A DNA stretch of 64,000 nucleotides from Leeuwenhoekiella parthenopeia (GTDB taxonomy: Bacteria; Bacteroidota; Bacteroidia; Flavobacteriales; Flavobacteriaceae): the NCBI RefSeq assembly GCF_020782115.1, contig NZ_JAJGMW010000002.1, positions 186,001 through 250,000 on the forward strand, given 5' to 3'. Of the stretch, positions 22,814 through 48,366 are shown in pieces. Every line of letters begins with the position of its first letter. Position 1 is the stretch's first letter. The position numbers were made by a program, and so were the translations under genes. The notes beneath the pieces were generated by a model that had not been told where the DNA came from, did not search any database, and saw only the letters and a list, made by a program, of their open reading frames with translations.

Positions 22814-25800
22814 CTAGTCAATCATCAGGCGCTTGGAGAATGATTTTCCATTTACAGAGCCTTTAAGGATGTAAATACCGGTTTGAAGTACCGGCAGGTT
22901 TAGTTGCAATTCCTGAGTTTCCTGAAGCAGAGCCTGAGCTTCAGTAGTATTACCCTGATAATCCAGAATAGAAAATGCTCCAAAAGCCTCAATAGGTTCT
23001 TCCCAATACAAAATGGTCTGAGCTCTGGCCGGGTTTGGAGCTATTCGGCCCAAATCCTGAGTATCCTCATCATTGCTTACCGGGTTTGCGGGACCGGGTT
23101 CTACGCCCCAAATCAACTCGCCATCCCAATATACCGTGATTTTATCGGTTTGTGTGAAGCTGCTGAAGTCTGCATAGCTATAATCGTCTCGCTCATCAAA
23201 TGGAGACGGATTTTCTTTTTCGATTTTCATGCGCAGCTCCTGCGAGTTACCCAATGCAGGGAGGCTTGCATTTGCACCAAATGTCAACTCCAGATAGTGA
23301 TCTGCACCATCCCGATTTTCTGCAAGTGTGGTAAAGTTTCCGAAGAAGTCTTTTTTATTGAAAATCCCGGTTTGCTCAGCCTTAAATACCATACCCGTTG
23401 TGTTCTCGGCTGTAAACCAATAACGCAGGCTTAGGCGTTCCATATTCACAGACGCATCCAATTCGTTTTGAAGTATGAGATGAGGGCGTATCTTATTGCT
23501 TTCTGTTTTTTCCTTATCTCCATCTCTGTAATTCACGATAATGAAAGGCGCCACGACCTCAGTTTCTTCGGAATAGCAGGAAAGTTGACCATCATCCAGA
23601 AGGGCTGCAACTCTATACGTATAACGGGTTCCCGGTTGTACGCCCTGGTGCACATAAGTGGTTGCGTCAGCAGCCACCTGATCGAGAATGCTAAAGTCAT
23701 CGTTGCCACTTTTCACTTCAATTTGATAGCCATTGGTTTCGGCAAGATTGCTGGCCCAGCTTATTTCAATCTGATCTGGAGCAATTCCTCTAGAATCTAC
23801 TCCCGCAAAAGCTTCCAGACTTATCACTAAATCCAGATCACTAGTCACCTGCAACACGGATTCATCGAGAACAGCCGAGCCTTTCAGTATTTGATAAGGC
23901 TGATCTACATTAGAGGCTACGTTATAAAAGATAAGGCTACCGTCTTCCTGAGGTTTTTTGTATTCCCCGTTAAAGGCAACCAGAAGGGCATCGAGCGAAG
24001 CATTACAACCCTCAATACGCATAGTAACTGTATGCGGTGTAGTTTCGGTAGCTACACTGTCGTAAATTTCAGACCAGTCATCTATGCCAATAATGGCTTT
24101 ATAGGGTTCAAAAAAGGCGTCTTCATTGGCTGTGCCAGCAGCTTCCCAAACATACCAGCCTTCCTTTTTCTGATCAAAACCTTCTACAGTACCTTCCTGT
24201 ACCGTCCATAAGCCAAATAGAAGTCCGGCTTCATTGGGGTTATCTACCCAGCGGTGTAATTGAATATTTTCAATGGCAGGTAATCGGTTATTTGTTTTCT
24301 TCCAAAAATAAGCAAGTGCAGCTGCCTGTGTGGTCTCATTGGCATTAGCGTTTCGTTCGGTATTTGAGCTAAAACCATTTTCTGATAGTAAAATAGTGCG
24401 CACCTTTTTACCATTATAAAGCACCTCTTTTTGACGTACATAGGCATCAATCATCTCCAGGTTGCGGGGCGTGATTTGCGGGGTATTAAAATTGAACTGA
24501 GTTTGCGCCGGAGCATCATTCCATACCAACGGATTAAAAAGATTGGTAGGATACGAATGCCAGCCTATTCCCCACTCGTAATCACCTTCTTTTTGGCTAA
24601 GCTCAACCAGAGTTGCCAAAACATCTTTTGACCTAAAATTGGCATCGCTCACCGCTTTACTGTTAAAGTGTTTGGTGTACGAACCGAAGACTTTGGCTGC
24701 AGGATTGTGTTTGCGAATGGTATAATGTACCATACGCATCGATCTGTCGTAGATCTGTGTGTAGAGATCAACCGGTTTTTGCCCGGCGTGCGTCCATGAG
24801 GTATGCGCGTCAACCTCGTTGTGAATAATCCATTGATCCAGACGGCCAAATTGCTTATCGGGTCTGCTGTAGCGCTGTGCCAAAAAGTCGATCATTGCCG
24901 TGTAATATTCTATTCCTTCGGGCGTAGTTACGTTGGCCATGCTGTAAAGACCCAGTGAAGCATCAGGATGCGTAAAAATGCGATCCAGATCTGGATTGGC
25001 AATACTTATAGGAATCAGCAAAACTACAGAGGCTTTGATGTCTGCATCACTTAGTGCCTTAAGTCTTGAATCGAGATTGCCTACAAAATTGGCGTTGATG
25101 TTGTAAACCTTGCCGTTAAACTCGTGGGTGAGTGCACTGGGATTAAGGCTGAAAACACCATTAAGCAGCAGATTGATTTTCATACTGGTAATATCCAGAT
25201 CGGTTAGGTCTGAGAAATTAGGCAAGGTGTTGGGAGTTAGACCATCAAGTCCCTTTACGCTTCGAGCTTTGTCCTCCGGAAGGTTATTTAGCGCGGCAGC
25301 ACTTATATTGGTCGGCCATTTTAAATTAGAAACCAGGTTGGTAGCCGAAGCATCGTCACTGTCAACCAGTACCCAACGGGAGTACAGGCGATCGCGATTA
25401 TGATCACCTGCGGCTTCAAAACGCGGAAACTCGAGTTTAAAAGTTTGGTCAACGAGTTCGACCGGCGTAATCGTGGTCAATCCTTTGGCATCAAAGCCGT
25501 AAAGATCTGCAGTAGCTTCAGCAAGAAAGAGCGGCGAAGTACCAGCCGCTGTACCACTTACAATAACCTGATCCTGTGTTATCACAACGTCTGTCACTGC
25601 ATTTTCAAAAGTGGTATCCAGATACGCCTGAAAGCTTGCATCAAGGGCGCGACTTACAAATTTGTCGCTGGTTTGTTCTTCAACCAGCTCTTGGGCTGTA
25701 GGCTTTCTTAGCGTAATGTTGCGAATAAACAGGCTTTTTTCCTCGTTTTCATTTCGCCCAAAATCAAAGCGAAACTGGTTCCAGTTTTTAGTCTGAAAGT

Positions 25801-27019
25801 TGTCAACCAGTAATCTGGGATTGATGGTTACGGGGGTCCAGTCTGCTGCTGCCGGTAATACGTCTGCAGTAAAGCTTTGCTGCCCGGTTAAAGGAGGTGC
25901 AAAGAATACCTGAAGTTCATTGTACGCAGCTTCGGCTTTATACTCAAAAGTAAGAATATAGGTTTCTTCAATATCGTAACGTACTTCAACCGGCTTGCTC
26001 AAAATCCAAGGATCATTTGCTTCGGTGTCGAGTTGATACGAGCCGTCTGCCAATTCGGTAGCAGTTAAAAACGGACTGGTACGATTGACATCCAGTTCAA
26101 TTGCAAATTGTTCTTCAACTTTTAAGGCAGGTTTTTCGGCATTTGTGGGTTCGCGTAAAACCAGATTGGACACGGTGATATTCTGCCCGGGGCTTCTCCC
26201 AAAATCAAAGCGCAACTGATCGTAATATTGATCCCATGCAGATGCCGCAACAGGTAGGATTAAGGTATAAATTTTTGGCGTGCTACTGGCAGGAATGGAT
26301 CCCAGTTGAATGCGTCGATCTGGGCTGGGAGGAAAGCCATAAAACAAATCAAAAAAATCAATTCCGGTGGATGAAGTATATTCAAAACTCAGTACCACAG
26401 TTTGCTCGGGATCGTAAACAGGGATGGGATCTGTGTACACGTAAGGGTCGTTGCCTAAAGTGTTGATGCTGAAGGTTTCTGCAGGATCTTCGGTAATGGC
26501 CATTTGATTGCGTTGCTCAGGATTGAGGCTCACGGGCACTACTTCGCCGGCTTCAGCCGACCGAATTACCAGATTGGTAATCGTAATGGTTTGCCCCGCA
26601 CTGCGCCCCAAATCGAGTCGTAAACTGTCGTAAAAGGTATCCCAGTTGGTCACTTCATACTTCATAAAAGCCTTAAAAGTGGTGAACTCGGTAGTGGGAG
26701 CGAGGCTGCCAAAATCGATACGACGGGTTGCCGGACTGATGGGTCTGCCGTAAAAAATCTGAAAATTATCCAGACCTTCGGTAGCGATGTAATCAAAACT
26801 GATGACATAGACGGCGCTGGGATCGTAGGCCGAAATAGGCCTGGTGATCACCCAGGGATCAGCTCCCTGTGTGGTGATTTCATAGGTTCCCGAAGAAACC
26901 TCGGTTAGGTTCATCTGGTTTTTCAAACCAGGATTGAGCTCAAGCGATATCGTTTGCGAGCTCACCATTGCCGGAATACCCAAAGTAAACAGCAGGATTA
27001 GATGTAGAAGTCTTTTCAT
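22814..27019 (-). CDS. Secreted DUF5722-type putative glycoside hydrolase with CBM3-like module and T9SS tail
   Basis: This 1401-residue multidomain secreted protein has a signal peptide (1-21) and three tandem beta-sandwich repeats of about 130-145 residues (about 22-445), each with a GADPWVITRPI-like motif. A catalytic-looking domain (about 450-1000) resembles what I recall as DUF5722. It contains IIHNEVDAHTSW (Glu735) and LLSENGFSS (Glu880), the spacing and contexts of acid/base and nucleophile in clan GH-A (beta/alpha)8 enzymes. Then come a fibronectin-III-like domain (about 1065-1150) and a CBM3-like module (NKIRPHLILQNELDAS, LRYWFT, DYSYADFSSF, WDGELIWGVEPG). The C-terminus is a type IX secretion sorting domain (IAPNPARAQTILYWEEP ... 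SFSKRLMID). It is the last gene of a seven-gene operon with sulfatases and rhamnosidases, and is probably the extracellular depolymerase. Enzyme activity is inferred. Confidence 0.8.
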   Translation of the reverse strand: MKRLLHLILLFTLGIPAMVSSQTISLELNPGLKNQMNLTEVSSGTYEITTQGADPWVITRPISAYDPSAVYVISFDYIATEGLDNFQIFYGRPISPATRRIDFGSLAPTTEFTTFKAFMKYEVTNWDTFYDSLRLDLGRSAGQTITITNLVIRSAEAGEVVPVSLNPEQRNQMAITEDPAETFSINTLGNDPYVYTDPIPVYDPEQTVVLSFEYTSSTGIDFFDLFYGFPPSPDRRIQLGSIPASSTPKIYTLILPVAASAWDQYYDQLRFDFGRSPGQNITVSNLVLREPTNAEKPALKVEEQFAIELDVNRTSPFLTATELADGSYQLDTEANDPWILSKPVEVRYDIEETYILTFEYKAEAAYNELQVFFAPPLTGQQSFTADVLPAAADWTPVTINPRLLVDNFQTKNWNQFRFDFGRNENEEKSLFIRNITLRKPTAQELVEEQTSDKFVSRALDASFQAYLDTTFENAVTDVVITQDQVIVSGTAAGTSPLFLAEATADLYGFDAKGLTTITPVELVDQTFKLEFPRFEAAGDHNRDRLYSRWVLVDSDDASATNLVSNLKWPTNISAAALNNLPEDKARSVKGLDGLTPNTLPNFSDLTDLDITSMKINLLLNGVFSLNPSALTHEFNGKVYNINANFVGNLDSRLKALSDADIKASVVLLIPISIANPDLDRIFTHPDASLGLYSMANVTTPEGIEYYTAMIDFLAQRYSRPDKQFGRLDQWIIHNEVDAHTSWTHAGQKPVDLYTQIYDRSMRMVHYTIRKHNPAAKVFGSYTKHFNSKAVSDANFRSKDVLATLVELSQKEGDYEWGIGWHSYPTNLFNPLVWNDAPAQTQFNFNTPQITPRNLEMIDAYVRQKEVLYNGKKVRTILLSENGFSSNTERNANANETTQAAALAYFWKKTNNRLPAIENIQLHRWVDNPNEAGLLFGLWTVQEGTVEGFDQKKEGWYVWEAAGTANEDAFFEPYKAIIGIDDWSEIYDSVATETTPHTVTMRIEGCNASLDALLVAFNGEYKKPQEDGSLIFYNVASNVDQPYQILKGSAVLDESVLQVTSDLDLVISLEAFAGVDSRGIAPDQIEISWASNLAETNGYQIEVKSGNDDFSILDQVAADATTYVHQGVQPGTRYTYRVAALLDDGQLSCYSEETEVVAPFIIVNYRDGDKEKTESNKIRPHLILQNELDASVNMERLSLRYWFTAENTTGMVFKAEQTGIFNKKDFFGNFTTLAENRDGADHYLELTFGANASLPALGNSQELRMKIEKENPSPFDERDDYSYADFSSFTQTDKITVYWDGELIWGVEPGPANPVSNDEDTQDLGRIAPNPARAQTILYWEEPIEAFGAFSILDYQGNTTEAQALLQETQELQLNLPVLQTGIYILKGSVNGKSFSKRLMID

Positions 27020-27068
27020 AAAAATTGGTTTGGTTTGTTAATTAAACATATTAGTCAAAGCGGTCAAA

Positions 27069-28568
27069 TTAGGGTTTCATCTGTTGCAGAAATGTAAGTA
27101 GTTGATCGGTATAGCGCTCCTGTAATTCAGTTACCGAAGCTTTTCCGTATAAGTCATTCCATTCCCGGGGATCTTCAGCGAGGTTATAGAACTCACCGGT
27201 TATGATCGCGTCCCGCGAGTAGGCTGAGGTTTTGTCTTTTCGTTCTAAAACCAAAATGAGTTTGTGATTTTCGGTACGCCACATAAATGCCGCTTCACCC
27301 TCACGCTCGTGCAATGCCGAAAAACTAGCCGGTTTAGTGGCCTCCTTGAGGAGATTACTTCCCGGTAATGGCTTGTTTTGCGGTATTCCGGCGAGTTCAA
27401 GCAGGGTGGGTAAAATGTCCACATTTTCGGTGGGGCGTTTAGAAACACTGCCTTTTTGTACAGCTTCGGGTAGGGCATTTCCGGCTAAAATAAGCGGAAC
27501 GCGTACACTGCTTTCATATAAATTGTATTTGTTAAAACGGTAATAGTGCTCTCCCAGCATTTCACCGTGGTCTGATGTATAAACAATGATGGCGTTGTCC
27601 AGCAATCCTTTTTTTCGCAAAGCGCGTAAGGTCCTGCCCATCATATCATCTATCCAGGTCACATTGGCGTAGTAACGCATGGTCATAAGTTTCCAATCTT
27701 CGTCAGTAGCATTTTTCCAGTACTCTTCATACAGATCCCGGCGATTGACACCTTTAGCGTGGGGAGAATAGTCCTCATCCCAGGGGGGTTGCTGGGCATA
27801 GGTGATTTCGTCAAGATCGTATAAATCTTCGTAACCCTCAGGTACGTTATGCCCGGCGTGGGGCTTCATATAGCTCAGATAGAAAAACAAGGGGCGCTCG
27901 TCTTCCCGTTTTTCAATATACTCCAGCGCGCGGTCTGTGATCCAGCCATCGCGATGTTCAGACTCAGGGAGTTTGCTGGTAAAACCCAGATATCCCAGAT
28001 TGTTTTCTTCTCCGGGCCCCATAGCGGCGACCTCGGCGTCGTATCGCGCTTTAGCTTCAGGATTGAGTTCGGCCATACTTTTACCTCCTTTTTCGGGGAT
28101 TTCTGAAGTATAACGGGTCTCAAAACCACGGGTGTCTGTCTTGTACCTACCCCAATGCGTTTTACCAAAACCTGCAGTTTCATATCCTGAATCTTTAAAA
28201 TATTGGGCCATGGTTTTACCCGGCAATAATGAATCTGCCACACCACCGCTGTTGCGATACACCCCGGTTTGATTGGGATAAAGGCCAAACATAATGCTGT
28301 TGCGGCTGGGCACACACATAGGAGCCTGGCATACCGCTTCGCGAAAGAAAACACCATTTTTAGCGAGACTGTCTAGCGTGGGCGTTTTTATAATTGAATC
28401 TACAATCCCAAGCGCATCCCAGCGGTGTTGATCGTCCATAATAAATATGATATTGGGACGCTTGGATTGAGCAGTTGTGTTTTTCGCAGGAGTGGTGGTT
28501 TGCTCTTTACAACCGGTGAAAAAAAGACTTACTGCAAGAAGGGTATAGGTAAAAAGGCGTATCGTCAT
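27069..28568 (-). CDS. S1 family sulfatase, lipoprotein
   Basis: This is a 499-residue formylglycine sulfatase. It has a lipoprotein signal (LLAVSLFFTGC), an N-terminal metal site FIMDDQHRWDALG, the sulfatase signature Cys85-V-P-S-R (Cys converted to formylglycine), and a second metal motif TSDHGEMLGEHY. It hydrolyses sulfate esters, probably from rhamnose-containing oligosaccharides given the operon. The gene follows the next sulfatase upstream with a 2-bp gap and precedes the DUF5722 gene by 49 bp. Substrate position (2-O, 3-O or 4-O sulfate) cannot be read from the sequence. Confidence 0.93.
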   Translation of the reverse strand: MTIRLFTYTLLAVSLFFTGCKEQTTTPAKNTTAQSKRPNIIFIMDDQHRWDALGIVDSIIKTPTLDSLAKNGVFFREAVCQAPMCVPSRNSIMFGLYPNQTGVYRNSGGVADSLLPGKTMAQYFKDSGYETAGFGKTHWGRYKTDTRGFETRYTSEIPEKGGKSMAELNPEAKARYDAEVAAMGPGEENNLGYLGFTSKLPESEHRDGWITDRALEYIEKREDERPLFFYLSYMKPHAGHNVPEGYEDLYDLDEITYAQQPPWDEDYSPHAKGVNRRDLYEEYWKNATDEDWKLMTMRYYANVTWIDDMMGRTLRALRKKGLLDNAIIVYTSDHGEMLGEHYYRFNKYNLYESSVRVPLILAGNALPEAVQKGSVSKRPTENVDILPTLLELAGIPQNKPLPGSNLLKEATKPASFSALHEREGEAAFMWRTENHKLILVLERKDKTSAYSRDAIITGEFYNLAEDPREWNDLYGKASVTELQERYTDQLLTFLQQMKP

Positions 28569-28570
28569 AA

Positions 28571-30049
28571 TTATCGGGTTTGCTGTCTGGTTTTGATCTG
28601 GAGCGGGTCGTTTGCCAGATCTCCGGTTTCTTTGCGCCAGGTTGCCATTTTTTCGCGAAAGCGTTTTAATATAGCAGTATGGGCTTGGGAATCAGCCAGA
28701 TTTTCTAGCTGAAAGGGATCATTTTGCATATCGTAAAGTTCTTCTGCCGGTCTGCCTGATTCTAAAGTTTGCAACAGCTTATAGGCTTGTGGATGGGTTT
28801 CTTTTGCCTGAAGCGTGGCTGTATAACTGAGATTTCCCCAGCCCTGTTGCTGTCTCAGGTCTGCCGGAAGCACATAGGCTTTAGCGGGCATCAGGTTTAA
28901 AATGTAATAGTACCGCCCATCAAAAGCCGCGCGACTAGGATAGTGCTCGTCGCGTGGAGGGCCGTGGGAATTGTGTTCCCCAAAAACATATTCCCGGTCT
29001 TCGATTTCATTTTGTTTTCCGGCTAAAATGCCCCATAACGACTTACCCTGAACCTGATTAGGGATGGGTAGTTCGGCAAAATCCAGAAGGGTAGGCATAA
29101 GGTCTATTAGCGACACCAGTGCATCGGTTTGTTTGTTTTGGATCACTCCCGGGCCGCTTACAATTAAGGGAACGTGAAGCCCGGCGTAATATGCCGAAGC
29201 TTTAGCGCGGTGATATGCCATCCCCTGATCGCTGGTGTAAATAACCAAAGTGTTTTGATCCAGATTGTTGTTTTTTAGCGTTTCTAAAATGGCACCCGCG
29301 CAGGCATCTGCAAGTTGTACAGAACCGTAATACTGTTGTAAATCTTCACGCATAAGCGGGGTGTCTGCCAGAAACCCGGGAACTGCGATAGCATTCTTAT
29401 CGGGTAAAAACCCGGGAAAGCGTTTCATATGCGAGCCAAAAGGCCTGTGAGGAGCCGCAATATTCGCCTGAATGAAAAAGGGCTGTCCACCGGCGGCTGT
29501 GATGAAATTTTGTATTTCGCTCTTGTAAGCTTCGGGATCGTTATGCACGTCGCTGCGCCCGTTGTAGGGAAATTTCCACGGCGGACTCATATGAAACTTT
29601 TGAGTAATGGCGGTATAGTAGCCGTTTTCCTGTAGTATTTCAGGAAGGGTTTTGAGGTATTCGTGAATGCCTACTTCGTCAATGTGTGTGCCGGCTTTGG
29701 TAAATTCTACATCAGGGTCTGCCAGACTGGGCGTAATCGTATTGCGCCAATGCCCGTTTGCGTGAGGATACATCCCCGTCATAATACTGCTGCGACTGGG
29801 AGAGCAGGAAGGCACAACCGCAAAAGCATTAGTAAAAAGCACACTCTTTTTTGCCAAAGCATCCACGTGAGGAGTTTTAATGCCCGGAGTACCTAAAACC
29901 GAGAGGTGTGCACTCTGGTCGTCTGTAAGAATTAATACGATATTTAAAGGTTTGGACGGCTGGGTATCTTGCGCATGATAGGGGTTTTGGATGCCGGGAA
30001 ATACCAGCAACCAAATGAGCAAGACGAAAAAGCATTTACCGTTCTGCAT
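28571..30049 (-). CDS. S1 family sulfatase (sulfamidase-like subgroup)
   Basis: This is a 492-residue sulfatase with a signal peptide (FFVLLIWLLVFPGIQ). The metal-binding LILTDDQSAHLSVLG is followed by the signature Cys82-S-P-S-R in VVPSCSPSRSSIMTG. The C-terminal metal motif is TSDQGMAYHRAK, with Gln where many sulfatases have His, as in the heparan-sulfamidase-like branch. It lies in the middle of the PUL operon, with 3 bp to the upstream sulfatase and 2 bp to the next. It probably acts in the periplasm on oligosaccharides imported by SusCD. Confidence 0.92.
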   Translation of the reverse strand: MQNGKCFFVLLIWLLVFPGIQNPYHAQDTQPSKPLNIVLILTDDQSAHLSVLGTPGIKTPHVDALAKKSVLFTNAFAVVPSCSPSRSSIMTGMYPHANGHWRNTITPSLADPDVEFTKAGTHIDEVGIHEYLKTLPEILQENGYYTAITQKFHMSPPWKFPYNGRSDVHNDPEAYKSEIQNFITAAGGQPFFIQANIAAPHRPFGSHMKRFPGFLPDKNAIAVPGFLADTPLMREDLQQYYGSVQLADACAGAILETLKNNNLDQNTLVIYTSDQGMAYHRAKASAYYAGLHVPLIVSGPGVIQNKQTDALVSLIDLMPTLLDFAELPIPNQVQGKSLWGILAGKQNEIEDREYVFGEHNSHGPPRDEHYPSRAAFDGRYYYILNLMPAKAYVLPADLRQQQGWGNLSYTATLQAKETHPQAYKLLQTLESGRPAEELYDMQNDPFQLENLADSQAHTAILKRFREKMATWRKETGDLANDPLQIKTRQQTR

Positions 30050-30052: not shown

Positions 30053-31609
30053 CTAATCAATTTGAATTTTTGTTGGATGACGCAAGCCACCATCTTGTTT
30101 CCCGATCGAACCACTATCATACATTGATGGATCGAAGGCGGGATTTTTGGGAGGTATAATCGTACCGGCATCCGTAAGATGTTCTGTGATGTAGGTGTTG
30201 AGTTCATCAACTTTCTCCGGGTAGGTGCTGGCAAGGTTATTGGTTTCGCCGATATCCCACTTGAGGTTAAAGAGCAGAAATTCGTCTTCAAAATCAGCTC
30301 CATTCTTAAAGAGGCGAATCAGCTTCCAATCTCCATCATTTACAGCTACAGATGGTGGTAACCAGTCTGGAACTCCTGGATCGTGAGGGAAGTAGGTGAT
30401 TACTGGCTTTCGTTTAAAGGCTTCGCCTTTAAGTACCGGTGTAAGGTTAACGCCGTCAATCCTATAATCTTCGGGTACTTCCAGGCCTAAATGTTCAACC
30501 AGCGTCGGGTAGAAGTCGGTAGATTGAATGAGCGCATCGGTTGTGGTACCGGGGTTTGTAAGGCCCGGCCATACGACCACGCAGGGAACGCGTATCCCGC
30601 CTTCATACATAGTCGCTTTGCCTCCTTTGAGTGGCGTATTACTGGTAGGCGGAGTCAGAAATTTTTCGCCGTTAGGCAGGCTTTCCACAATACCGTTGTA
30701 CATATTGCCGCCATTATCACTAAAAAAGATGATGATGGTATTGTCTGCTATTCCCAGACGATCAATCTCGTCCAGTAAACGTCCTACCGCATCATCAAGC
30801 GAATGAACCATAGCCGCGTAAGTGGGTGAATGCTGAAGGTTTTCAAAATCAACCTGAGTGCGGTAATAATCGATGTAAGTTTCTTTAGCATCAAAAGGCG
30901 CGTGTACCGAAAATTGCCAATAATTCATAAAAAAAGGCTTGTCACGATCCTGTTTTTGCATCCAGTGTACCGCTTCTTCTGCCATGCGATCTTCGATGTG
31001 TTCTTTTGGATAATTTTCCTTAAAGTCTTTAAACTTCCAGGGAGCGACAAAACTCCCTGCCGGGCCAGGTCCCTGCCAATGCGGGATGTCCAGGTCAAAA
31101 CCGTGCTGAAGGGGTGTATAGGGCTCCAGTCCTAAGTGCCATTTTCCGAAATGAGCTGTAGCATAACCTGCTGATTTGACCAGTTTGCCTAAAGTAGGCA
31201 GGCTCGTATCCAGCCTTGTGACCGATTGCGGAATGATTACTTTTTTACCCGGAGCTGATTTTTCAGGATAGGTTTCTTTGAGCCGAACTTCAGGCAGATG
31301 CGCCTGTGGGGCTGTAACACCATTGCGCGCAGGGGTTTGCCCGGTGAGTATACTGGCTCGGGTAGGTGAGCATAAGGGCGATGCCGCATAAGCCCGATTA
31401 AAGGTTAAGCCTCTTGCCGCCAGCCTTTCAATATTGGGCGTCTGGTAAAAACTGGTAGTGCCATAAAGCGTGGTGTCACTCCAGCCCAGATCATCTGCTA
31501 GAATAAAAACCACGTTCATGGGTTTGTTTTCCTGAGCCTGAGCCTGTAAACACAGCGCTGTAAAAAAGAAGATTGAAAGAATCGTATTTTTTAGAAATGG
31601 GATCATCAT
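30053..31609 (-). CDS. S1 family sulfatase (arylsulfatase A-like)
   Basis: This is a 518-residue sulfatase with a signal peptide ending near CLQAQAQE. It has FILADDLGWSDTTLYG (metal Asp pair), Cys80-S-P-T-R in SPLCSPTRASILTGQ, HFGKWHLG (active-site Lys/His) and FFSDNGGNMYNG (Asp-Asn metal ligands). The start ATG overlaps the stop of the GH78-like gene by 4 bp (ATGA), so translation is coupled to the rhamnosidase. This supports removal of sulfate from rhamnosyl residues as its job. The exact linkage is unknown. Confidence 0.93.
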   Translation of the reverse strand: MMIPFLKNTILSIFFFTALCLQAQAQENKPMNVVFILADDLGWSDTTLYGTTSFYQTPNIERLAARGLTFNRAYAASPLCSPTRASILTGQTPARNGVTAPQAHLPEVRLKETYPEKSAPGKKVIIPQSVTRLDTSLPTLGKLVKSAGYATAHFGKWHLGLEPYTPLQHGFDLDIPHWQGPGPAGSFVAPWKFKDFKENYPKEHIEDRMAEEAVHWMQKQDRDKPFFMNYWQFSVHAPFDAKETYIDYYRTQVDFENLQHSPTYAAMVHSLDDAVGRLLDEIDRLGIADNTIIIFFSDNGGNMYNGIVESLPNGEKFLTPPTSNTPLKGGKATMYEGGIRVPCVVVWPGLTNPGTTTDALIQSTDFYPTLVEHLGLEVPEDYRIDGVNLTPVLKGEAFKRKPVITYFPHDPGVPDWLPPSVAVNDGDWKLIRLFKNGADFEDEFLLFNLKWDIGETNNLASTYPEKVDELNTYITEHLTDAGTIIPPKNPAFDPSMYDSGSIGKQDGGLRHPTKIQID

Positions 31610-36676: not shown

Positions 36677-36683
36677 AATGATT

Positions 36684-38284: not shown

Positions 38285-38348
38285 TTTTAAAATCCGAAAT
38301 CGTTATCGCTACTGAAAATCGGGTTTGTTAATTCTTAAACCAATCAAC

Positions 38349-41300: not shown

Positions 41301-41420
41301 TATAGCGGTATTGATCCTGAGGTGAGTTCGCTTGGAGGAAATACACTGGCTCCTGGGGTAGATCTTGGTGTATATCCCAGACAGAGAGGTTATACCATGG
41401 GTGTGAATTTTAGATTTTAG
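38349..41420 (+). CDS. susC: SusC/RagA family TonB-linked outer-membrane transporter
   Basis: This is a 1023-residue outer-membrane glycan importer. It has a signal peptide (ending LTGMYAQ), a carboxypeptidase-regulatory-like domain (ITGVVSTSDGQVLPGVNVVEKG), the SusC signature VVVVGYGAQKRTDITGSVSS, a plug (RIRGNNSLSADNSPLYVVDG) and a 22-strand barrel ending MGVNFRF. The ATG at 38349 is used because the upstream in-frame codon at 38325 is only a TTG. SusC forms the TonB-powered channel under the SusD lid. The pair should import sulfated rhamno-oligosaccharides into the periplasm. susD follows after 20 bp. Confidence 0.95.
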   Translation: MKLKQLKKISRHALLLCFAFTLTGMYAQSQITGVVSTSDGQVLPGVNVVEKGTNNGVVTDFDGKYQITTQSANAVLVFSFVGFETLELPVNGQQLVNATMTADEQSLQEVVVVGYGAQKRTDITGSVSSVEGEDLEKAVYNTVDQLLQGRSAGVQVTSSSGEPGANSSVRIRGNNSLSADNSPLYVVDGIPLSGTPQLNPQDIESLEVLKDASATAIYGSRGANGVILVTTKRGQVGKATVSVYQNITLSETRKTYEVLQGQQYAEFRNEAIADLRPNDAPPFPNPEQYAGTGFNWQDEILRTGIRSEYGVNVNGGEERTRYFVSANLLEDKGIVVGSNYRRGTFRTNLDTKLFNDKMGIKVRLNGSHVQNNRAITSSRAFPAGAGPIFYSYTAEPIVPSRDYAGITGEGQQFFNPYLEATAKDDRNYVTDLFASTELSYKITPELTYTFNGGLNFTFNNRDIYTPSNVGAGIDLNGLAQLSQNRSYDYITSNYLTYKNLFAENHDITATAGVEYSEFNNIASNSRVNNFPIEALGVNDVGSATGDPTIGSGRNRSVIQSGFFRLNYAFDSRYLLTATIRADGSSRFAQNEKWGYFPSAALGWRVSEEAFLKDSKTISNLKFRASIGETGTQSLPPYQSLARYGSSFYGTGQTLNLALFPVSVENPNLKWETTRQTDIGIDLGLFQNRVNITADYFKKETFDLLAVVPLPDQVGYPSYQGNFGSIENKGFEFAIDFTPVQNENFSWSSNFNVTFIKNTVLELFNDIDRFGPGLGQNVFGNGHLYRPGEEFGLFYGLKAVGLIQESDFDADGNPLFAPRNGVTQLGSWKFEDVGGGEDGAPDGIITNEDRQVIGNPNPDYTFGWVNDFYYKNFNLNIFIQGSVGNDIYNTIGTVLGSGFQNNESYKNQTVDWYLNRWTPDNPTNDIRYPSINSESPPVANYMVEDGSYIRLQSVSLRYNIPMENSNTFSGIEVYGTATNLFTITDYSGIDPEVSSLGGNTLAPGVDLGVYPRQRGYTMGVNFRF

Positions 41421-41440
41421 AACAAGAAAAAACAACGATT

Positions 41441-42931
41441 ATGAAAAATATAGTTATAATACTTATAGGTCTTCTGACCTTGTCGGCTTGTGAAAGTTTA
41501 GAGGAAACACCTTTTGATTTTCTTTCGGCAGATAACCTGTATCGCAACGAGGCCGACGTTGATTTGGCACTGTTTGGGGTGTATTCCTCATTAAATACCG
41601 CCAATCACGATTTATGGTACTTTATGTCCACATCAGGACCCGGAGAGAGTGTAACCACCCGATTTAATGGTGGAAACCAACTCTTTCTTGCAGGTTTGAA
41701 CTTCAATCCCACACTTGCCCACGGCGTGTGGTGGAGTAATTTTTACAGAGGTATTAACAGAGCAAACGCCGTTATTGCCAATGTACCCGGAGTAGGTCTT
41801 GAAGAAAGTCTTGCTGAGCAAAAAATTGCTGAAGCGCGTTTTCAGCGGGCCTTCTTTTATTTTAATTTGGTGAAATGGTTTGGAGGTGTACCCCTCTATT
41901 TGGAAGAGACTACCAATTTTTCTGAAGAAGTAATTTTTAAGCCCAGAAACACTACCGAAGAAGTCTATGCAGCCATCATTGAAGATCTCCAATATGCAGA
42001 GACGCGTTTGCCTGCAACTTGGGATGCGGCTAATTTTGGTCGTGCGACTTCAGGTGCAGCAAAAGGGTTTCTAGGAAAAGTGTACTTGCATATGGCAGGT
42101 AAGCCTTTAGAACAAACCGATAAGTATGCCCTTGCAGCGGCCAAGCTGAAGGAAGTTGTAGATTCTGGAGTTTATGCCTTGCAGCCCGATTTTGGTTCGA
42201 TATTTACTTTAGAAAATGAGCGAAATAACGAGTTGATTTTTGTTAGACCCAATGTGGAAGACGATGCTGCCGGAACGGTACTTACGTTTTTTGCCGGTCC
42301 ACCCAACACGCCATTTGCCAATAGAAACGGGCAATACCAGTTTGGCTTCTCCCTTGCTTTTTACAATTCATTTAGTCCAGATGATAAGAGACGCGATGTA
42401 ACCATGCAGTACACGTATATCGACGCTAATGGCAGGTCGATCACGTATAACAGCCCCAGCAACCCGCAATTACCTCAAGGAGGTTACAGAGAGCCGGGTG
42501 GTGTGGCTTTAGGCAAACTCAAAGATGCTCAAAATGACGTATCTCCGTTTGCCCACGATAATGATATTATTTATATGCGTTATGCAGATATATTACTGAT
42601 GCTTGCAGAAGCTTTAAATGAATCCAATCAGGCAGCAGCGGCTCTTCCTTATTTAAAGTTGGTAAGGGATCGTGCAGGTTTGCCCGTTGTTTCTACAACA
42701 GATAGAGCTGCTTTAAGAGCAATAATTAAGCAGGAGCGCAAATGGGAACTTGCAGGAGAGTATCAGGAATATGGGGATTTACAGCGCTGGGGAGATATTC
42801 AGGCTTCTATTGCTAATAATGCAGCATCAAGACGCATTGGTGTCACCTACGATCCAAAGATGGAATTGTTACCCATTCCACAGGGTCAGCTTGATGATAA
42901 CCCTAACTTAACTCAAAACCCCGGGTATTAA
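41441..42931 (+). CDS. susD: SusD/RagB family glycan-binding lipoprotein
   Basis: This is a 496-residue outer-membrane surface lipoprotein (lipobox LTLSAC, Cys17) with a helical TPR-type SusD fold. The N-terminal ETPFDFLSADNLYRNEADVDLALFGVYS and C-terminal WGDIQ...LLPIPQGQLDDNPNLTQNPGY are the family's standard beginning and end. It captures oligosaccharides and covers the SusC channel encoded immediately upstream. Its position between the operator-controlled susC promoter and a sulfatase gene ties it to the same substrate. Confidence 0.95.
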   Translation: MKNIVIILIGLLTLSACESLEETPFDFLSADNLYRNEADVDLALFGVYSSLNTANHDLWYFMSTSGPGESVTTRFNGGNQLFLAGLNFNPTLAHGVWWSNFYRGINRANAVIANVPGVGLEESLAEQKIAEARFQRAFFYFNLVKWFGGVPLYLEETTNFSEEVIFKPRNTTEEVYAAIIEDLQYAETRLPATWDAANFGRATSGAAKGFLGKVYLHMAGKPLEQTDKYALAAAKLKEVVDSGVYALQPDFGSIFTLENERNNELIFVRPNVEDDAAGTVLTFFAGPPNTPFANRNGQYQFGFSLAFYNSFSPDDKRRDVTMQYTYIDANGRSITYNSPSNPQLPQGGYREPGGVALGKLKDAQNDVSPFAHDNDIIYMRYADILLMLAEALNESNQAAAALPYLKLVRDRAGLPVVSTTDRAALRAIIKQERKWELAGEYQEYGDLQRWGDIQASIANNAASRRIGVTYDPKMELLPIPQGQLDDNPNLTQNPGY

Positions 42932-42994: not shown

Positions 42995-43007
42995 TATATA
43001 GGATCGT

Positions 43008-44522
43008 ATGCATTTCAAGAATCGAATTTTTCTCTTTTTTTTGGTCCTGGTGGGTGTTTGGAGTTGCAAAAACCAAAACGCAACCCCATCCCCTGAAACA
43101 ACTGCTGCTCAAAAGCCCAATTTGTTGATTGTGTTGTCAGACCAACACTCGTATGATATGTTGGGAACCTACGGCAACAGGCAGATCAAAAGCCCCAATC
43201 TGGATGCTTTTGCAAATGAAGGAATACGTTTTAATAATGCGTTTTCAAACCAGCCGGTTTGTACGCCTTTTCGGGGGATGATTATGAGCGGTATGCAACC
43301 GCTTAAAAACGGAGCCTTTATCAATGATGCTCCCTTGTTACCCAATAAGACCAAACTTTTAGCCCAAATCTTAAAGGAGCAGGGCTATCAAACTGCCTAT
43401 ATAGGGAAGTGGCATTTGCTGGGTGGTGAGCGCGACCGGCCGGTACCGGAAGGCGAACTGCGCTATGGTTTTGACACCTTGCTGACCAATAATTGCCATG
43501 TAGATTTTAGACCGGGTCATGCCTTTTTCTGGAATAATCAGGGAGAGAAAGAATATTTTGACAAATGGGAAGTGTATGGGCAGACAGACCAGGCGCTGGC
43601 TTATCTGGACAGTATAGACAAGTCTAAACCCTTTGCGTTGATTGTATCCTGGCATCCTCCACACGACTGGGGCAAGTTTAAAGGAGAAGATGGTAAAATG
43701 CATTACCGTTATGATACGATGGACGAACTAATGGCTCTCTACGATCGCGACAGTATTGAGATGCGTCCCGGGATTGAACCCACTCCAGACCGCAAACGTA
43801 TGTATCACGGGTATATGGCGATGGTGAGTGGCGTAGATAAGGCCTTTGGTCAATTAACAGCCAAGCTTGACGAGTTGGGAATCGCCGAGAATACCCTGAC
43901 GCTGTTTTCTGCCGATCACGGCGATATGCTGGAGTCGCACAATGCGATTTTACCCAAGCAGTATCCTCACGATTACTCCAATCACATCCCTTTATTGATG
44001 CGTTTTCCTAAAAAGCTACGGGCCGGTACAGATACCAACCTGCTTTTTGGCGCATTGGACATTATGCCAACGATTTTGGGCCTTATGGATATTGAGACAG
44101 ACCAGAAGTATGACGGTAAGGATCATTCTGATGCTCTTGTAAACGGGAAGGAAGATGTGGTTGACTATGTGCCTTTATGGTTGTACCGAAGGGGAGTTGC
44201 CAACAACAACAATTGGCGGGGTGTGGTTACCAAAGATTTTACGTTTGCGATGGGACGAGGTAAAGACTCTATACCGCTTACCAATGTTTTATACGACCGA
44301 AACAACGATCCCTATCAGCTCAATAATTTGTTTTATGACGAAAACTACCGTGCAAAACGCGACAGTCTTGAACAACTTACCCGTAGCTGGATGAAAACCT
44401 ATAATGATGCTTTTTATGGGGCGGAAGAATTTACGGAGATCAGGCCACCGGAAACCTGGATGTACAACTATACTAAAAGTCCGTACGAGTTATTTGCCGA
44501 GCGAGAGCAGGCAATGAATTAA
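43008..44522 (+). CDS. S1 family sulfatase, lipoprotein, downstream of susCD
   Basis: This is a 504-residue sulfatase with a lipoprotein signal (FLVLVGVWSC). It contains LIVLSDQHSYDMLGTYG (metal site with Ser-Asp), Cys85-T-P-F-R in NQPVCTPFRGMIMSG, YIGKWHLLGG and FSADHGDMLESHNA. It follows susD on the same strand after 76 bp containing a weak hairpin, so it is probably transcribed from the susC promoter. A strong terminator follows. It should act on the same sulfated rhamnan, but the target position is unknown. Confidence 0.92.
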   Translation: MHFKNRIFLFFLVLVGVWSCKNQNATPSPETTAAQKPNLLIVLSDQHSYDMLGTYGNRQIKSPNLDAFANEGIRFNNAFSNQPVCTPFRGMIMSGMQPLKNGAFINDAPLLPNKTKLLAQILKEQGYQTAYIGKWHLLGGERDRPVPEGELRYGFDTLLTNNCHVDFRPGHAFFWNNQGEKEYFDKWEVYGQTDQALAYLDSIDKSKPFALIVSWHPPHDWGKFKGEDGKMHYRYDTMDELMALYDRDSIEMRPGIEPTPDRKRMYHGYMAMVSGVDKAFGQLTAKLDELGIAENTLTLFSADHGDMLESHNAILPKQYPHDYSNHIPLLMRFPKKLRAGTDTNLLFGALDIMPTILGLMDIETDQKYDGKDHSDALVNGKEDVVDYVPLWLYRRGVANNNNWRGVVTKDFTFAMGRGKDSIPLTNVLYDRNNDPYQLNNLFYDENYRAKRDSLEQLTRSWMKTYNDAFYGAEEFTEIRPPETWMYNYTKSPYELFAEREQAMN

Positions 44523-44527
44523 GCCAG

Positions 44528-44560: not shown

Positions 44561-44593
44561 ATATCGGTTTGAAGGCGAAAACCTCAAGACTGC

Positions 44594-46270
44594 CTAATTC
44601 ATCAAATTTCTAAAAGGTGTTTTTCGCGTTTCCTTATCGGGCTGATAATCTGGGTTTAGCTGCGGAAGGTATCTGGACTCCACATTTTGCTTCAGCCAGT
44701 TTTTTAGATCCTGAAACAAGCTTTGCGCCCGTTCCGGTTCCAGTTGGGCCAGGTCGTTTTGTTCATAGGGATCCTGCTCCAGATTGTACAGGTGCAGGCG
44801 GCCGTACCAGTCAAATATCAATTTATAATCGCCTTTGCGCACTGCAGAATGTGGTGTGAGCGGCAATTTGTCGTAGGGGCTGTTGTAAATGACATTAAAA
44901 GGATAATGCCAGTAGTGTGTTGTTTTGGTATAGGTGTTTTCCCTATTGTTGGGATCTTTCAGTAAGCCCCAGAGGCTTTGCCCATCGAGCTCGCTGAGGT
45001 TTGGGATTTCGTGCTGAGCCGCTTCAAGCAAAGTTGGGAAGATATCGGTCACATCTACCGGCGTGCTGACCCATTGGTTGGCGGGGATGTGATTCTTCCA
45101 CCTAAAAACCAGGGGAACCCGTATTCCGCCTTCCGTAAGCATAGCTTTTCCGCCTAAAAAAGGAGCGTTGTCTGTACCATCACCCTTGGGCGTAAGCTTT
45201 GAATCAATCCCGCCATTGTCTGACATAAATATTACCAGGGTGTTTTCTTCAAGACCGGTTTCTTTCAGCTTTTGCAAAATTGCGCCCACAGAGCGATCCA
45301 TACTTTTTACCATTGCGGCATAAACAGGATCTTTGTGATTGTTCCAACCCCGGGTACTTTTCGACTTAAAATAATCAACAGCATCGGTCTCTCCCTGATA
45401 AGGTGCGTGTACCGCAAAATGCGAAAAGTAAAGCAAAAAGGGTTTTTGGCTTGCATGTGCCTGCTCCTCAATAAAGTTTAAGGTCTGCTGCGTAAGATCA
45501 TTGGTAAGATAGTCTTCACCCGTATGGGTTCCTGAATCTCCAATCTCCCAGATTTCCTGCGGAATTTTTGGAAATGCCCGGGTTGCGGTATTGTCCCAGT
45601 TTGCACGCCAGTTGAAATAGGCCGAACCCCCGCCGTCAAAATAAGCCAGGGTTTTAAAGCCATTATCAGCAGGCTGGTAACCTTTGGCACCAAATCCGCC
45701 AATATGCCATTTCCCTATAAATGCCGAAGTGTAGGAAGGGAGCGCTTCGGCAAAAGTGACTTCATCTTTGCTATCATCAATAGTCGTTCCTGTAGGCAAT
45801 GCGGCATTAGAGGTGGCGTTTTTCCAGGCTTGCTCGATGCTTATGGCATCTTCGTGAGCTAAAACATCGTGTGCATAATATCCTTCCGGTACCGGTAGAT
45901 TTTGATTGTAATACGTCGGTCTAAGCGGCATTGCAGTGGTAAAACCCAAACGGGCTGCATATTTGCCGGTAAGTATGCTGGCCCGGGTAGGCGAGCATAA
46001 GGGGTTTGCATAGGCTTGTGAAAAAGCGGTGCCTTCCGCGATTAGGCGATCCAGATTTGGCGTCTCGTAATACATCTCGGCTGTATCTACTTTGGTAAAA
46101 TACTGCGCATAAGCCTGAGCATCTACAATACCAAAATCATCTGCCAGAATCAAAATAATATTTGGCCGTAGAGTAATGGTATTTTCCGTTTGCGCTTCCT
46201 GCCTGTTGGTATTTTGACACGAAACAAATACCAGGAGCAAATAAATAAGGAAGTTATGCTTTGCTTTCAT
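44594..46270 (-). CDS. S1 family sulfatase, lipoprotein (arylsulfatase A-like)
   Basis: This is a 558-residue sulfatase with a lipoprotein signal (LLLVFVSC). Visible motifs are LILADDFGIVDAQAY (metal Asp pair), Cys92-S-P-T-R in NPLCSPTRASILTGKY, FIGKWHIGG and FMSDNGGIDSK (metal Asp-Asn). It overlaps the upstream 699-residue DUF5722 gene by 4 bp, so the two enzymes are made together. The DUF5722 protein may cut where this sulfatase exposes or removes a sulfate. The operon is driven by the ACAG-repeat promoter at 48388-48436. Confidence 0.93.
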   Translation of the reverse strand: MKAKHNFLIYLLLVFVSCQNTNRQEAQTENTITLRPNIILILADDFGIVDAQAYAQYFTKVDTAEMYYETPNLDRLIAEGTAFSQAYANPLCSPTRASILTGKYAARLGFTTAMPLRPTYYNQNLPVPEGYYAHDVLAHEDAISIEQAWKNATSNAALPTGTTIDDSKDEVTFAEALPSYTSAFIGKWHIGGFGAKGYQPADNGFKTLAYFDGGGSAYFNWRANWDNTATRAFPKIPQEIWEIGDSGTHTGEDYLTNDLTQQTLNFIEEQAHASQKPFLLYFSHFAVHAPYQGETDAVDYFKSKSTRGWNNHKDPVYAAMVKSMDRSVGAILQKLKETGLEENTLVIFMSDNGGIDSKLTPKGDGTDNAPFLGGKAMLTEGGIRVPLVFRWKNHIPANQWVSTPVDVTDIFPTLLEAAQHEIPNLSELDGQSLWGLLKDPNNRENTYTKTTHYWHYPFNVIYNSPYDKLPLTPHSAVRKGDYKLIFDWYGRLHLYNLEQDPYEQNDLAQLEPERAQSLFQDLKNWLKQNVESRYLPQLNPDYQPDKETRKTPFRNLMN

Positions 46271-48366
46271 TCGGTTATGGGTTTTTCGTAGCGTATTTCG
46301 TTCCAGTTTTCAATACCAATCAGTTTTTTATAAGGGTCAAAAACCGCATCTTCCTGGTTTGTGCCAAAAGCCTGATACACAAACCAAACCGGTTTTTTCG
46401 CGCCGGGCTGTTCTTCATCATCCGGAAAGCGTCTCAAACCAATACGCAGGCCGCCTTCTCTACGATTGTCCTGCCAGTTGTGATATTGAAAGCCCTTAAT
46501 CGCATCCAGATACTTAATTTTTTTCAAGGCATAGGCCATTCCTGCTGCCTGTTCGTCAAGATCCTGAGAGGAATAAGTGGGCGAGTTCGTTCCATTCTCA
46601 GAAAGGTAAATGATGCGCGTTTTGCCTTTGTAAAGCATTTCGGGCCGTTTGGCCCAGGCTGCCAAAACTTCAATATTCTTAAAGGTGATGAGTTGGGTGT
46701 TAAAATCAAAACTCACTTTTTTATCGAGCCAGGTCTTGGGTTCCCTTAGCGATTCGGGATAGGGATGTTGCGCGATAGCCCACTCAAAATTTCCTTCGGC
46801 ATCAGAGTAGCTTACCAAAAGATTCAAGAGGTCTTTAGAATGGTAAAACATATTATTGGAGGTCCAGTTCCAGTAATGTGTAAGCGAAATAAACACCTGA
46901 GCATTGGGATTGTATTTGCGGGCGATCAGGTAGGTAAGGCGCATCGATTTGTGATACAAATCCATAAAAACAGTTTTGGTTTTATCACCGGCATTGGTCC
47001 ATACCCACCCGGCGTCAACCTCATTGTGAATGATGTAGTGGTGAATGCGACCAAATTTACCGTCTGGTCTGCTGTAGCGCTGGGCCAGAAAGTCGTTGAT
47101 GGCACTGTAGTAGGTGATGCCTTGGGCACTGGTCACGTCTGGCATCGCATAAATCCCGGCCGGATCGCAGTCGGGATGCTGCAGGGCTTCCCCAATTTTT
47201 TTATCGGGGGATTGGCTTGCTTTGGCAACAAGCAGAATTGCAGAAACTTCAATATCGAGCGCGAATGCTTTTTGCATCGTGCGGTCGTATTTATCGAGCT
47301 GCTCTTTGTTAACGTAATAGGTTTTCCCCAAATACTCAAAAGGCACATTTTCTGCGGAAGCTTGGGATCTAAAAAGTCCGTTAATCCAAATATTTACCGT
47401 AACACTATTGATGCCCAGATCTTCCAGGTCTGAAGAAGGCGCCTGGCGATCTGCACTGTAACCGCCCAGACCTTTAATGGTTTTGGGTTTTAAGTAGTCA
47501 TAAGTGTATTGCGGCACGACCGAATCGGTATATCGCGCGTGAGAAAGCGGGTTTGCTGTTGTGGGTTCTACTAAAATCCAACGGGACAGCAATCGATCCT
47601 GAAGCGCTCCGGCTACTTTATGATAGCGGGGAATTTCAGCTTTAAAAATGCCATTATTGGGCCTTATTATTTTAGTGAAATGCGCTGTTTTAAAATCGGT
47701 AACATGTTCGTGCAGCGGAATTTCAGCCAATAAAACCTTTGCTTTTCCGGAGATGGTTCCGGTGATTTCTATGACCTCCTCTTTGGCGAGTACCTGTGTG
47801 ATCTGGCCTTCATAGCTGGTGTTGAGGTAACTTTCTATAGCTGCCTGTAATTGAAGTTCCTGCTGTTTTTTGGCCTGTTTTTCTGCCTCAATCGCCTTCT
47901 CGCGCTCCGATTGCGCACGTATTTGGAGGTTTCTAATTTGAATGGTTAGTCCGGGAGCGGTTCCAAAATCAATTCGTAACGAATCGCCTTTTTTCCCCCA
48001 GTTGCTGATTTTTTCGGTGAGGTCTATTCTAATTGGCACCCAGCCTTCTGTAGAGCCTATGTCGCGTAGGGTGACGGGCTCTTCTCCCGGATTTATGGGA
48101 TAGGTGTAAACCTGCAAAACATCAATCCCGGTAGGACAGAAATACTCAAACGCAAGTTGATTTTGATTGGCCTCTAACCCCTGAGTAAGAGGTAATGACA
48201 CAATATAGGGATCAGAGCCTGTGGTGGTAATTTCATAAACCGATGCATCCTCGGTCACCGATAACTCGTGAGTCTGATTGAGATTGAGTTGTAAAGCCAG
48301 ACCAGCATCCTGAGACCAGGCCAGATGTAGAAAAAGAAAAATGCCAAGAGAGAGTAAGCCGCGCAT
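46267..48366 (-). CDS. DUF5722-type putative glycoside hydrolase (short form)
   Basis: This 699-residue exported protein (signal MRGLLSLGIFLFLHLAWSQ) has one beta-sandwich repeat (about 25-150) of the kind found three times in the 1401-residue paralog. A charged helical linker (EREKAIEAEKQAKKQQ) and the DUF5722-type domain follow. Candidate catalytic pair: Glu449 in IIHNEVDAGWVW and Glu590 in YLSENGTNS, 141 residues apart (145 in the paralog). There is no T9SS tail, CBM3 or FnIII, so it probably stays in the periplasm and cuts oligosaccharides. It shares 4 bp with the following sulfatase. The hydrolase role is inferred from motifs and neighbourhood. Confidence 0.8.
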   Translation of the reverse strand: MRGLLSLGIFLFLHLAWSQDAGLALQLNLNQTHELSVTEDASVYEITTTGSDPYIVSLPLTQGLEANQNQLAFEYFCPTGIDVLQVYTYPINPGEEPVTLRDIGSTEGWVPIRIDLTEKISNWGKKGDSLRIDFGTAPGLTIQIRNLQIRAQSEREKAIEAEKQAKKQQELQLQAAIESYLNTSYEGQITQVLAKEEVIEITGTISGKAKVLLAEIPLHEHVTDFKTAHFTKIIRPNNGIFKAEIPRYHKVAGALQDRLLSRWILVEPTTANPLSHARYTDSVVPQYTYDYLKPKTIKGLGGYSADRQAPSSDLEDLGINSVTVNIWINGLFRSQASAENVPFEYLGKTYYVNKEQLDKYDRTMQKAFALDIEVSAILLVAKASQSPDKKIGEALQHPDCDPAGIYAMPDVTSAQGITYYSAINDFLAQRYSRPDGKFGRIHHYIIHNEVDAGWVWTNAGDKTKTVFMDLYHKSMRLTYLIARKYNPNAQVFISLTHYWNWTSNNMFYHSKDLLNLLVSYSDAEGNFEWAIAQHPYPESLREPKTWLDKKVSFDFNTQLITFKNIEVLAAWAKRPEMLYKGKTRIIYLSENGTNSPTYSSQDLDEQAAGMAYALKKIKYLDAIKGFQYHNWQDNRREGGLRIGLRRFPDDEEQPGAKKPVWFVYQAFGTNQEDAVFDPYKKLIGIENWNEIRYEKPITE

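Follow-up and report, generated by a model that had tools for sequence, protein, structure and literature searches.

Which enzyme makes the first cuts in a polymer whose breakdown otherwise seems to be served by sulfatases, α-L-rhamnosidases and rhamnose catabolism? This question is raised by a gene cluster in a stretch of 64,000 nucleotides of Leeuwenhoekiella parthenopeia (the window; contig NZ_JAJGMW010000002.1, positions 186,001 to 250,000), which encodes two proteins of the family DUF5722, P0001 ('type A') and P0002 ('type B'). The bacterium appears to live on sulfated rhamnose polymers. Both proteins, carried until now under the label 'domain of unknown function', are very probably enzymes that cut sugar chains and belong to a well-known structural class, clan GH-A of the glycoside hydrolases (GH). 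More specifically, we consider it probable that they are retaining hydrolases, with a Glu at strand 4 as acid/base and a Glu at strand 7 as nucleophile, that cut the backbone of a sulfated rhamnose-rich polysaccharide, type A outside the cell and type B in the periplasm. An earlier reading of the sequence (the original prediction) had proposed clan GH-A membership for both and had named them the only candidates in the region for an endo-acting rhamnanase. The features that carry the argument are the following.

22814-27019, minus strand: P0001 (type A), an open reading frame (ORF) of 1401 amino acids (aa)
24065-25270, minus strand: DUF5722 barrel of P0001, residues 584-985 (Pfam E 1e-105; AlphaFold2 model of residues 575-1000)
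24815-24817, minus strand: codon of Glu735, predicted acid/base, directly after strand 4
24380-24382, minus strand: codon of Glu880, predicted nucleophile, in strand 7
46267-48366, minus strand: P0002 (type B), an ORF of 699 aa
46294-47496, minus strand: DUF5722 barrel of P0002, residues 291-691 (Pfam E 1e-124; AlphaFold2 model from residue 19)
47020-47022, minus strand: codon of Glu449, predicted acid/base (model residue 431, after strand 425-428)
46597-46599, minus strand: codon of Glu590, predicted nucleophile (model residue 572, in strand 568-573)

Two conserved glutamates on a predicted barrel

The family name originally given is right, since both proteins match PF18989 (DUF5722) over almost the whole length of the model and far above its curated cut-off of 30.5 bits (P0001: 354.4 bits, E 1e-105; P0002: 416.9 bits, E 1e-124). 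They share 35% identity across ~690 aligned residues and are the only two DUF5722 proteins found in this genome. The family is uncommon: of 395 genomes sampled from the phylum, two have it, one being the source genome itself. A pattern scan with two short peptides across the genome_contigs collection (84,980 species) yielded 32 relatives from 113 pattern matches, in Flavobacteriaceae, Bacteroidales, other Bacteroidota, Verrucomicrobiota, Planctomycetota and Armatimonadota; because the scan relied on these two patterns, relatives with neither peptide are missed.

Each protein contains a single NEVD motif (Glu735 in P0001, Glu449 in P0002) and a single SENG motif (Glu880 and Glu590), with Glu-to-Glu spacings of 145 and 141 residues, exactly as originally claimed. 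Both glutamates are invariant in all 30 rows of one alignment (A2; the two window proteins and 28 of the 32 relatives) and in all 32 rows of another (A3; the two window proteins and 30 relatives), so the motif pair is not a product of chance. Left out of A3 were L009, a near copy of L008 that has both motifs, and L033, whose frame ends at a contig edge before the second Glu. The 32 rows of A3 also agree without exception in the His-Asn pair that precedes the first Glu, in H-x-Y on strand 6 and in the strand 8 Trp. Neither Glu lies inside a search pattern; one pattern ended in IIHN, so the conservation of His-Asn is partly built in. The residues after the first Glu vary (IQ, VN and AD beside VD), as do those flanking the second (TEQ and TEN among others, beside SEN), and the names NEVD and SENG are therefore narrower than the true conservation. 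Both motifs also occur in all four DUF5722 proteins of a second genome of the same bacterial family (G103).

The original prediction had named a test, namely whether structure prediction gives a barrel that has the two glutamates at strands 4 and 7, and for both proteins it does. AlphaFold2 modelled P0002 from residue 19 (30 alignment rows) with a predicted local distance difference test score (pLDDT) of 91.9 and a predicted template modelling score (pTM) of 0.84, and the barrel of P0001 (residues 575-1000; 32 rows) with a pLDDT of 92.7 and a pTM of 0.91. The P0001 model has eight strands in barrel order (taken as 15-18, 38-44, 88-94, 155-158, 202-207, 242-246, 302-307 and 342-347 in model numbering), and the P0002 model shows a matching order. 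In the P0001 model, HNE directly follows strand 4, after which lies Glu161 (Glu735 of the protein), and Glu306 (Glu880) lies inside strand 7 (302-307). As modelled, both proteins would thus combine three marks of clan GH-A: a (β/α)8 barrel, an Asn-preceded Glu at the end of strand 4 and a Glu at the end of strand 7.

Foldseek searches against the Protein Data Bank (PDB) agree with this picture. The whole P0002 model ranks GH2 β-glucuronidases first (E 4.1e-13, template modelling (TM) score 0.31, root-mean-square deviation (rmsd) ~20), and the barrel matches β-galactosidases, β-glycosidases, PslG and mannanases (best E 3.3e-12, TM ~0.5). The best 50 of 525 barrel matches at E ≤ 0.001 are GH-A folds as judged from their titles, and the listed matches are 10-15% identical; GH family numbers of PDB entries were taken from titles and general knowledge. 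Klotho, which we take to be a clan barrel protein thought to be non-enzymatic, is also among the matches of the barrel. It lends some colour to the idea that the DUF5722 proteins are non-catalytic binding or scaffold proteins for carbohydrates on a GH-A barrel. Such a role is highly improbable, because all 32 rows keep both glutamates as well as the N, H, Y and W around them.

By sequence, the relation to known families is distant. A Pfam scan of P0001 and P0002 at E ≤ 0.1 returned no PF00150 (GH5), PF01229 (GH39) or PF02836 (GH2), nor any other named GH catalytic domain, and by this test neither protein is a member of GH5, GH39 or GH2. Sequence searches of the PDB gave no match for P0002 and only CBM3 and fn3 chains for P0001 (CBM, carbohydrate-binding module). 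The A2 profile retrieved only a CRISPR protein from the PDB sequences (E 1.2), taken as chance.

Profile comparison reaches further. Small profiles were built from loci of other genomes for GH5 (24 sequences), GH39 (8 of 15 fetched), GH42 (6 of 24 fetched) and GH2 (24), the stronger matches being retained for GH39 and GH42, and A3 was compared with each by hhalign, with 60 block-shuffled versions of A3 as controls. GH5 scored 37.27 (probability 29%), above the best shuffle at 23.67 (0 of 60 as high). GH39 scored 28.15 (3%), marginally above its best shuffle at 27.13 (again 0 of 60). Profiles of six other families (GH106, S1 sulfatase, RhaI, SusC, RhaK and LldD) stayed at a probability of 0.3% or less. 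The GH5 alignment, which was built without structure, pairs HNE with YNE, WHSY with LHFY, LSEN with VTEF and HRW with CNW (DUF5722 first), and, apart from the Ser, the DUF5722 residues so paired (NE, H-x-Y, E and Trp) do not vary in any of the 32 rows. With GH39, HNE is set against WNE and LSE against YTE. In GH5 and GH39, the catalytic residues are the Glu of NEP and the Glu of TE. The GH5 alignment thereby supports, independently of the structure models, the assignment of the strand 4 and strand 7 glutamates. A detectable relation to a known GH-A family, a further mark of the clan, is found through GH5 and marginally through GH39, and fails for GH42 and GH2. Barrel models, Foldseek matches, the GH5 profile and the position and conservation of the glutamates together support the clan GH-A reading of the original prediction.

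Domain architecture and the two subfamilies

P0001 consists of three N-terminal repeats, a beta domain, the DUF5722 barrel, an fn3 domain, a CBM3 and a C-terminal sorting tail of the type IX secretion system (T9SS). P0002 has a signal-peptide-like start, one N-terminal domain, a beta domain and the barrel. The further domains of P0001 are located as follows.

25682-26956, minus strand: three tandem ~140-aa N-terminal domains (residues 22-157, 158-298 and 303-446)
23558-23794, minus strand: fn3 domain, residues 1076-1154 (Pfam)
23285-23512, minus strand: CBM3 domain, residues 1170-1245 (Pfam)
22820-23038, minus strand: T9SS C-terminal sorting domain, residues 1328-1400 (30.5 bits, cut-off 27; second match 26.5 bits, cut-off 23)

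The start of P0002 is hydrophobic, with no Cys within the first 35 residues, and no sorting tail or CBM was matched in this protein by Pfam; type B therefore probably meets imported pieces only. A tree of 36 barrels (the rows of A3 and four barrels of G103), with the type A labels set beforehand, splits seven type A sequences including P0001 from all others (support 100/99). On this sequence tree, P0001 and P0002 belong to different subfamilies. CBM3 occurs in P0001 and in five of the six type A relatives scanned, and the T9SS tail exceeds the Pfam cut-off (27 bits) in P0001 (30.5 bits) and L037.

The three N-terminal repeats of P0001 are 24-42% identical to one another and gave no Pfam match. 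This ~140-aa beta domain, present in three copies in P0001 and in one in P0002 (47899-48309), apparently aligns across most A2 rows (uncounted) and is a candidate binding module. PDB chains of CBM3 align to P0001 out to residues 1159-1311; a domain named cellulose-binding is thus located within a rhamnan-type cluster. Elsewhere, two ORFs of ~565 aa without a Pfam match (L126:17626-19320 and L012:11341-13041) adjoin type B DUF5722 genes. In genome G405 (contig C5, ~625500-634500), the intact gene has near it a DUF5722 remnant of 95 aa and a GH16 frame interrupted by a stop codon, which suggests local gene decay.

The gene cluster and its counterparts in other genomes

A survey of 22814-57108 for ORFs of at least 300 aa gives 18: the two DUF5722 proteins, six S1 sulfatases, a GH78, a GH106, SusC, SusD, a regulator, catabolic genes and a transporter-like protein. 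Besides the DUF5722 genes these are arranged as follows.

27069-28568, 28571-30049 and 30053-31609, minus strand: three S1 sulfatase genes (Pfam)
31606-33363, minus strand: GH78 α-L-rhamnosidase-like protein
33389-36733, minus strand: GH106 α-L-rhamnosidase-like protein (E 3e-208)
36684-38060, minus strand: S1 sulfatase
38325-42931, plus strand: SusC/SusD pair
43008-44522, plus strand: S1 sulfatase
44594-46270, minus strand: S1 sulfatase, overlapping the P0002 gene by 4 bases
48446-49492, minus strand: GntR-type regulator with a periplasmic-binding-protein-like domain
49682-57108, plus strand: rhamnose catabolism genes

The last region encodes a rhamnulose-1-phosphate aldolase/dehydrogenase, which exceeds its curated cut-offs, isomerase-, kinase- and lactate-dehydrogenase-like proteins, whose best matches fall below theirs, and an unclassified transporter-like protein. 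The latter (55687-57108), judged from its hydrophobic sequence and without a Pfam or NCBIfam match, is 81% identical in the G103 cluster and is a candidate L-rhamnose importer. In PDB searches the sulfatases best matched carrageenan, glycosaminoglycan or other sulfatases, which does not fix the position of the sulfate. A DUF5723 protein lies outside the cluster at 1445-2794. Of the original claim that P0001 and P0002 are the endo-rhamnanases of the locus, one part stands: they are the only ones of the 18 ORFs with a glycosidase-like domain and no named function, and they cluster with rhamnosidase and catabolism genes. The linkage and the internal cut stay at the level of a proposal.

Much of this cluster recurs in G103, where ~63 kb hold counterparts of the six sulfatases (60-71% identity), GH78, GH106, RhaD, RhaI and RhaK, LldD, the transporter and the regulator, together with four DUF5722 genes, two of type A and two of type B; its SusC and SusD are 31-38% identical to those of the window. 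Additional there are a further GH78, a further sulfatase, a GH43, a BNR_4 protein, a 3-keto-disaccharide hydrolase and an oxidoreductase. The BNR_4 protein, the hydrolase and the GFO_IDH_MocA oxidoreductase (L127:1129-2655, L127:16482-17870 and L127:17876-19219) hint at an extra oxidative step in that cluster. In nine of ten Flavobacteriaceae loci (L003-L012), a counterpart of the sulfatase at 44594-46270 (59-63% identical) lies close downstream of DUF5722; the remaining locus, L003, ends after the DUF5722 gene.

The BNR_4 protein and the GH43 of G103, which possibly act on polymer, also bear on whether one or both DUF5722 proteins are exo-acting or oligosaccharide-specific, type B trimming the ends of imported oligosaccharides while something else opens the polymer. 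The plain architecture of P0002, with its signal-peptide-like start and neither tail nor CBM, would suit such trimming, whereas P0001, by its CBM3 and T9SS tail, looks made for polymer at the cell surface, and the exo-acting rhamnosidases of GH78 and GH106 are already present in the cluster. We regard this alternative as distinctly unlikely.

Computation also supports an association of DUF5722 with rhamnosidase genes. The sample comprised 15 DUF5722 genomes (G000, G103 and the 13 of 32 loci on contigs >100 kb). Ten of them have GH106 no more than 40 kb from DUF5722 (0.96 expected under random placement), and eight have it within 21 kb (0.53 expected); of the remaining five, four have GH106 on other contigs only and one has none. 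The Poisson-binomial P (2e-10) rests on a model of random placement that does not do justice to clustered genes, and the control families are the better comparison: within 40 kb, GH16 occurs in one of the 15 genomes (61 matches) and GH43 in three (127 matches), against 61 matches for GH106. Both control counts were taken by eye from the places listed; the GH43 count omits a broken frame in G399 (below the cut-off, 15 kb from DUF5722), and the sole GH16 counted has an in-frame stop (G405). Gene numbers for GH106 are one too high for G397 and G405, which raises the expectation. In a scripted scan of all 32 loci, 12 had a rhamnosidase or a gene of rhamnose catabolism, 11 had an S1 sulfatase and 15 had either. 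Several of the contigs scanned are short, and L020 was missed despite a GH106 1.9 kb away. The entries counted as RhaD in L006 and L007, dehydrogenases of 259 aa, are probably spurious, though both loci count through GH78 anyway; the GH78 matches in L011 and L015 are short frames (153 and 285 aa), and a 153-aa GH78-like frame at the edge of L032 (51% identity) was uncounted.

The same clustering bears on the possibility that the two proteins are GH-A hydrolases cutting another linkage, e.g., that of a β-linked glucuronic acid, xylose or glucose residue within or attached to a polymer rich in rhamnose. Cleavage of β-linkages is the usual stereochemistry of the clan, most of the Foldseek matches listed act on β-D linkages by their titles, the whole P0002 model ranks β-glucuronidases first, and some DUF5722 loci show no rhamnose gene. 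Set against this, GH106 clusters with DUF5722 more strongly than GH16 or GH43, and among the 18 ORFs no lyase and no uronic-acid, xylose or glucose enzyme was matched. On balance, cleavage of another linkage appears unlikely.

A number of observations weigh against the reading of P0001 and P0002 as clan GH-A enzymes acting on rhamnan. On the side of the fold, the profile probabilities are low in absolute terms (29% for GH5 and 3% for GH39). The GH42 score of 27.97 (2.4%) was reached by three of 60 shuffles, and the GH2 score of 17.71 (0.15%) lies below the shuffled median of 18.32 and was reached by 35; since six other families also stay at or below 0.3%, GH2 does no better than unrelated controls. 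P0001 carries further invariant acids as well (Asp650, Glu811, Asp926 and Glu930). The comparisons with GH42, whose alignment spans 71 columns and misses the strand 4 Glu, and with GH2 were given no weight as evidence of homology. On the side of the substrate, most GH-A enzymes cut β-D or α-L-arabino linkages. In the scripted scan 17 of the 32 loci lack rhamnose genes and S1 sulfatases alike, among them six of the seven loci not assigned to Bacteroidota. The substrate of DUF5722 may be wider than rhamnan, and not a rhamnose polymer everywhere. Two Proteiniphilum loci (L018 and L028), with two DUF5722 genes each, pair them with a GH127-type protein, and L018 also with a GH20-type protein and with two ORFs that match no family; no rhamnosidase was found in either locus, and a different substrate is possible there. 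On the side of location, L025, a type A relative, lacks CBM3, and of the six type A relatives scanned only one has a T9SS tail above the cut-off; it is below in two (L029 and L038, 25.9 and 24.2 bits) and unmatched at E 0.001 in three (L030, L032 and L025). Taking both sides together, cleavage of a rhamnose polymer by P0001 and P0002 is likely, and specificity for rhamnan is a good guess. With two subfamilies and two catalytic glutamates, the claim is directly testable.

Proposed mechanism and comparison with known systems

We infer the following course of degradation from the family, the fold and the gene cluster. Glu735 and Glu449 would serve as acid/base and Glu880 and Glu590 as nucleophile in a retaining double displacement, by which P0001 and P0002 would break linkages in the backbone of a sulfated polysaccharide rich in rhamnose. 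P0001, the type A protein, presumably exported by the type IX system and provided with CBM3 and repeated N-terminal domains, would probably make the first cuts outside the cell, after which SusC/SusD would bring the pieces in. In the periplasm, the type B protein, whose gene overlaps a sulfatase gene, would probably shorten the oligosaccharides beside the sulfatases, GH78 and GH106, and the rhamnose would then enter the RhaI/RhaK/RhaD route. A narrower version is a tentative possibility: DUF5722 may form a clan GH-A family of its own, as yet unassigned, made up of retaining endo-α-L-rhamnanases, type A cutting rhamnan sulfate outside and type B finishing sulfated oligosaccharides in the periplasm. 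An α-L-pyranoside is an unusual substrate for the clan, for which the α-L-iduronidase of GH39 is a precedent.

If true, DUF5722 would provide a tool for making defined rhamnan oligosaccharides, allow rhamnan use to be traced in metagenomes by a marker gene, exemplify a GH-A barrel acting on an α-L-pyranoside and supply a hydrolytic first step for a seaweed polymer. No depolymerase or other enzyme opening the rhamnan sulfate chain is named among the literature matches listed. Rhamnan sulfate is described as a polymer of green seaweeds such as Monostroma, under study for medical use, and a passage of a 2025 paper urges the isolation of rhamnan sulfate-degrading bacteria and the characterisation of their enzymes (PMC12500386). 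For a Pontiella strain, 56 rhamnosidase genes are said, in the passage concerned, to suggest rhamnans as substrate (PMC7356697). Elsewhere, 'ulvan/rhamnan' loci have been predicted in a paper whose main text does not contain the term 'DUF' (PMC12313589). The name 'DUF5722' occurs in no paper of the open-access literature searched, outside which most subscription papers lie, and the Pfam entry PF18989, matched by both proteins over nearly its full model, gives no function.

Among characterised systems, GH5 resembles DUF5722 in its barrel and in the NE of strand 4, H-x-Y of strand 6, E of strand 7 and W of strand 8, which are in register; it differs in that neither window protein matches PF00150, and in the TM score of ~0.5 and the 10-15% identity to the listed matches. 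GH39 is close in structure, with 4zn2, 9g17 and 5bx9, which we take to be GH39 entries (4zn2 presumably being PslG), ranking third, fifth and sixth for the barrel, and in the pairing of NE with NE and SE with TE, but PF01229 is not matched and the profile score barely exceeds the best shuffle. The GH2 β-glucuronidases (6d8g and 5uj6) are the best whole-length matches of P0002, which likewise has beta-sandwich domains preceding the barrel, the usual domain order of GH2; here the difference is a TM score of 0.31 with an rmsd of ~20 over the whole chain and a profile score below the shuffled median. The α-L-rhamnosidases of GH78 and GH106 share the locus and probably the substrate, whereas they are exo-acting and inverting, and GH106 is a sequence family unrelated to DUF5722 (profile probability 0.06%). 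The phage tailspike endorhamnosidase of GH90 cuts rhamnose-containing chains internally, as DUF5722 proteins would, and does so with a β-helix rather than a barrel.

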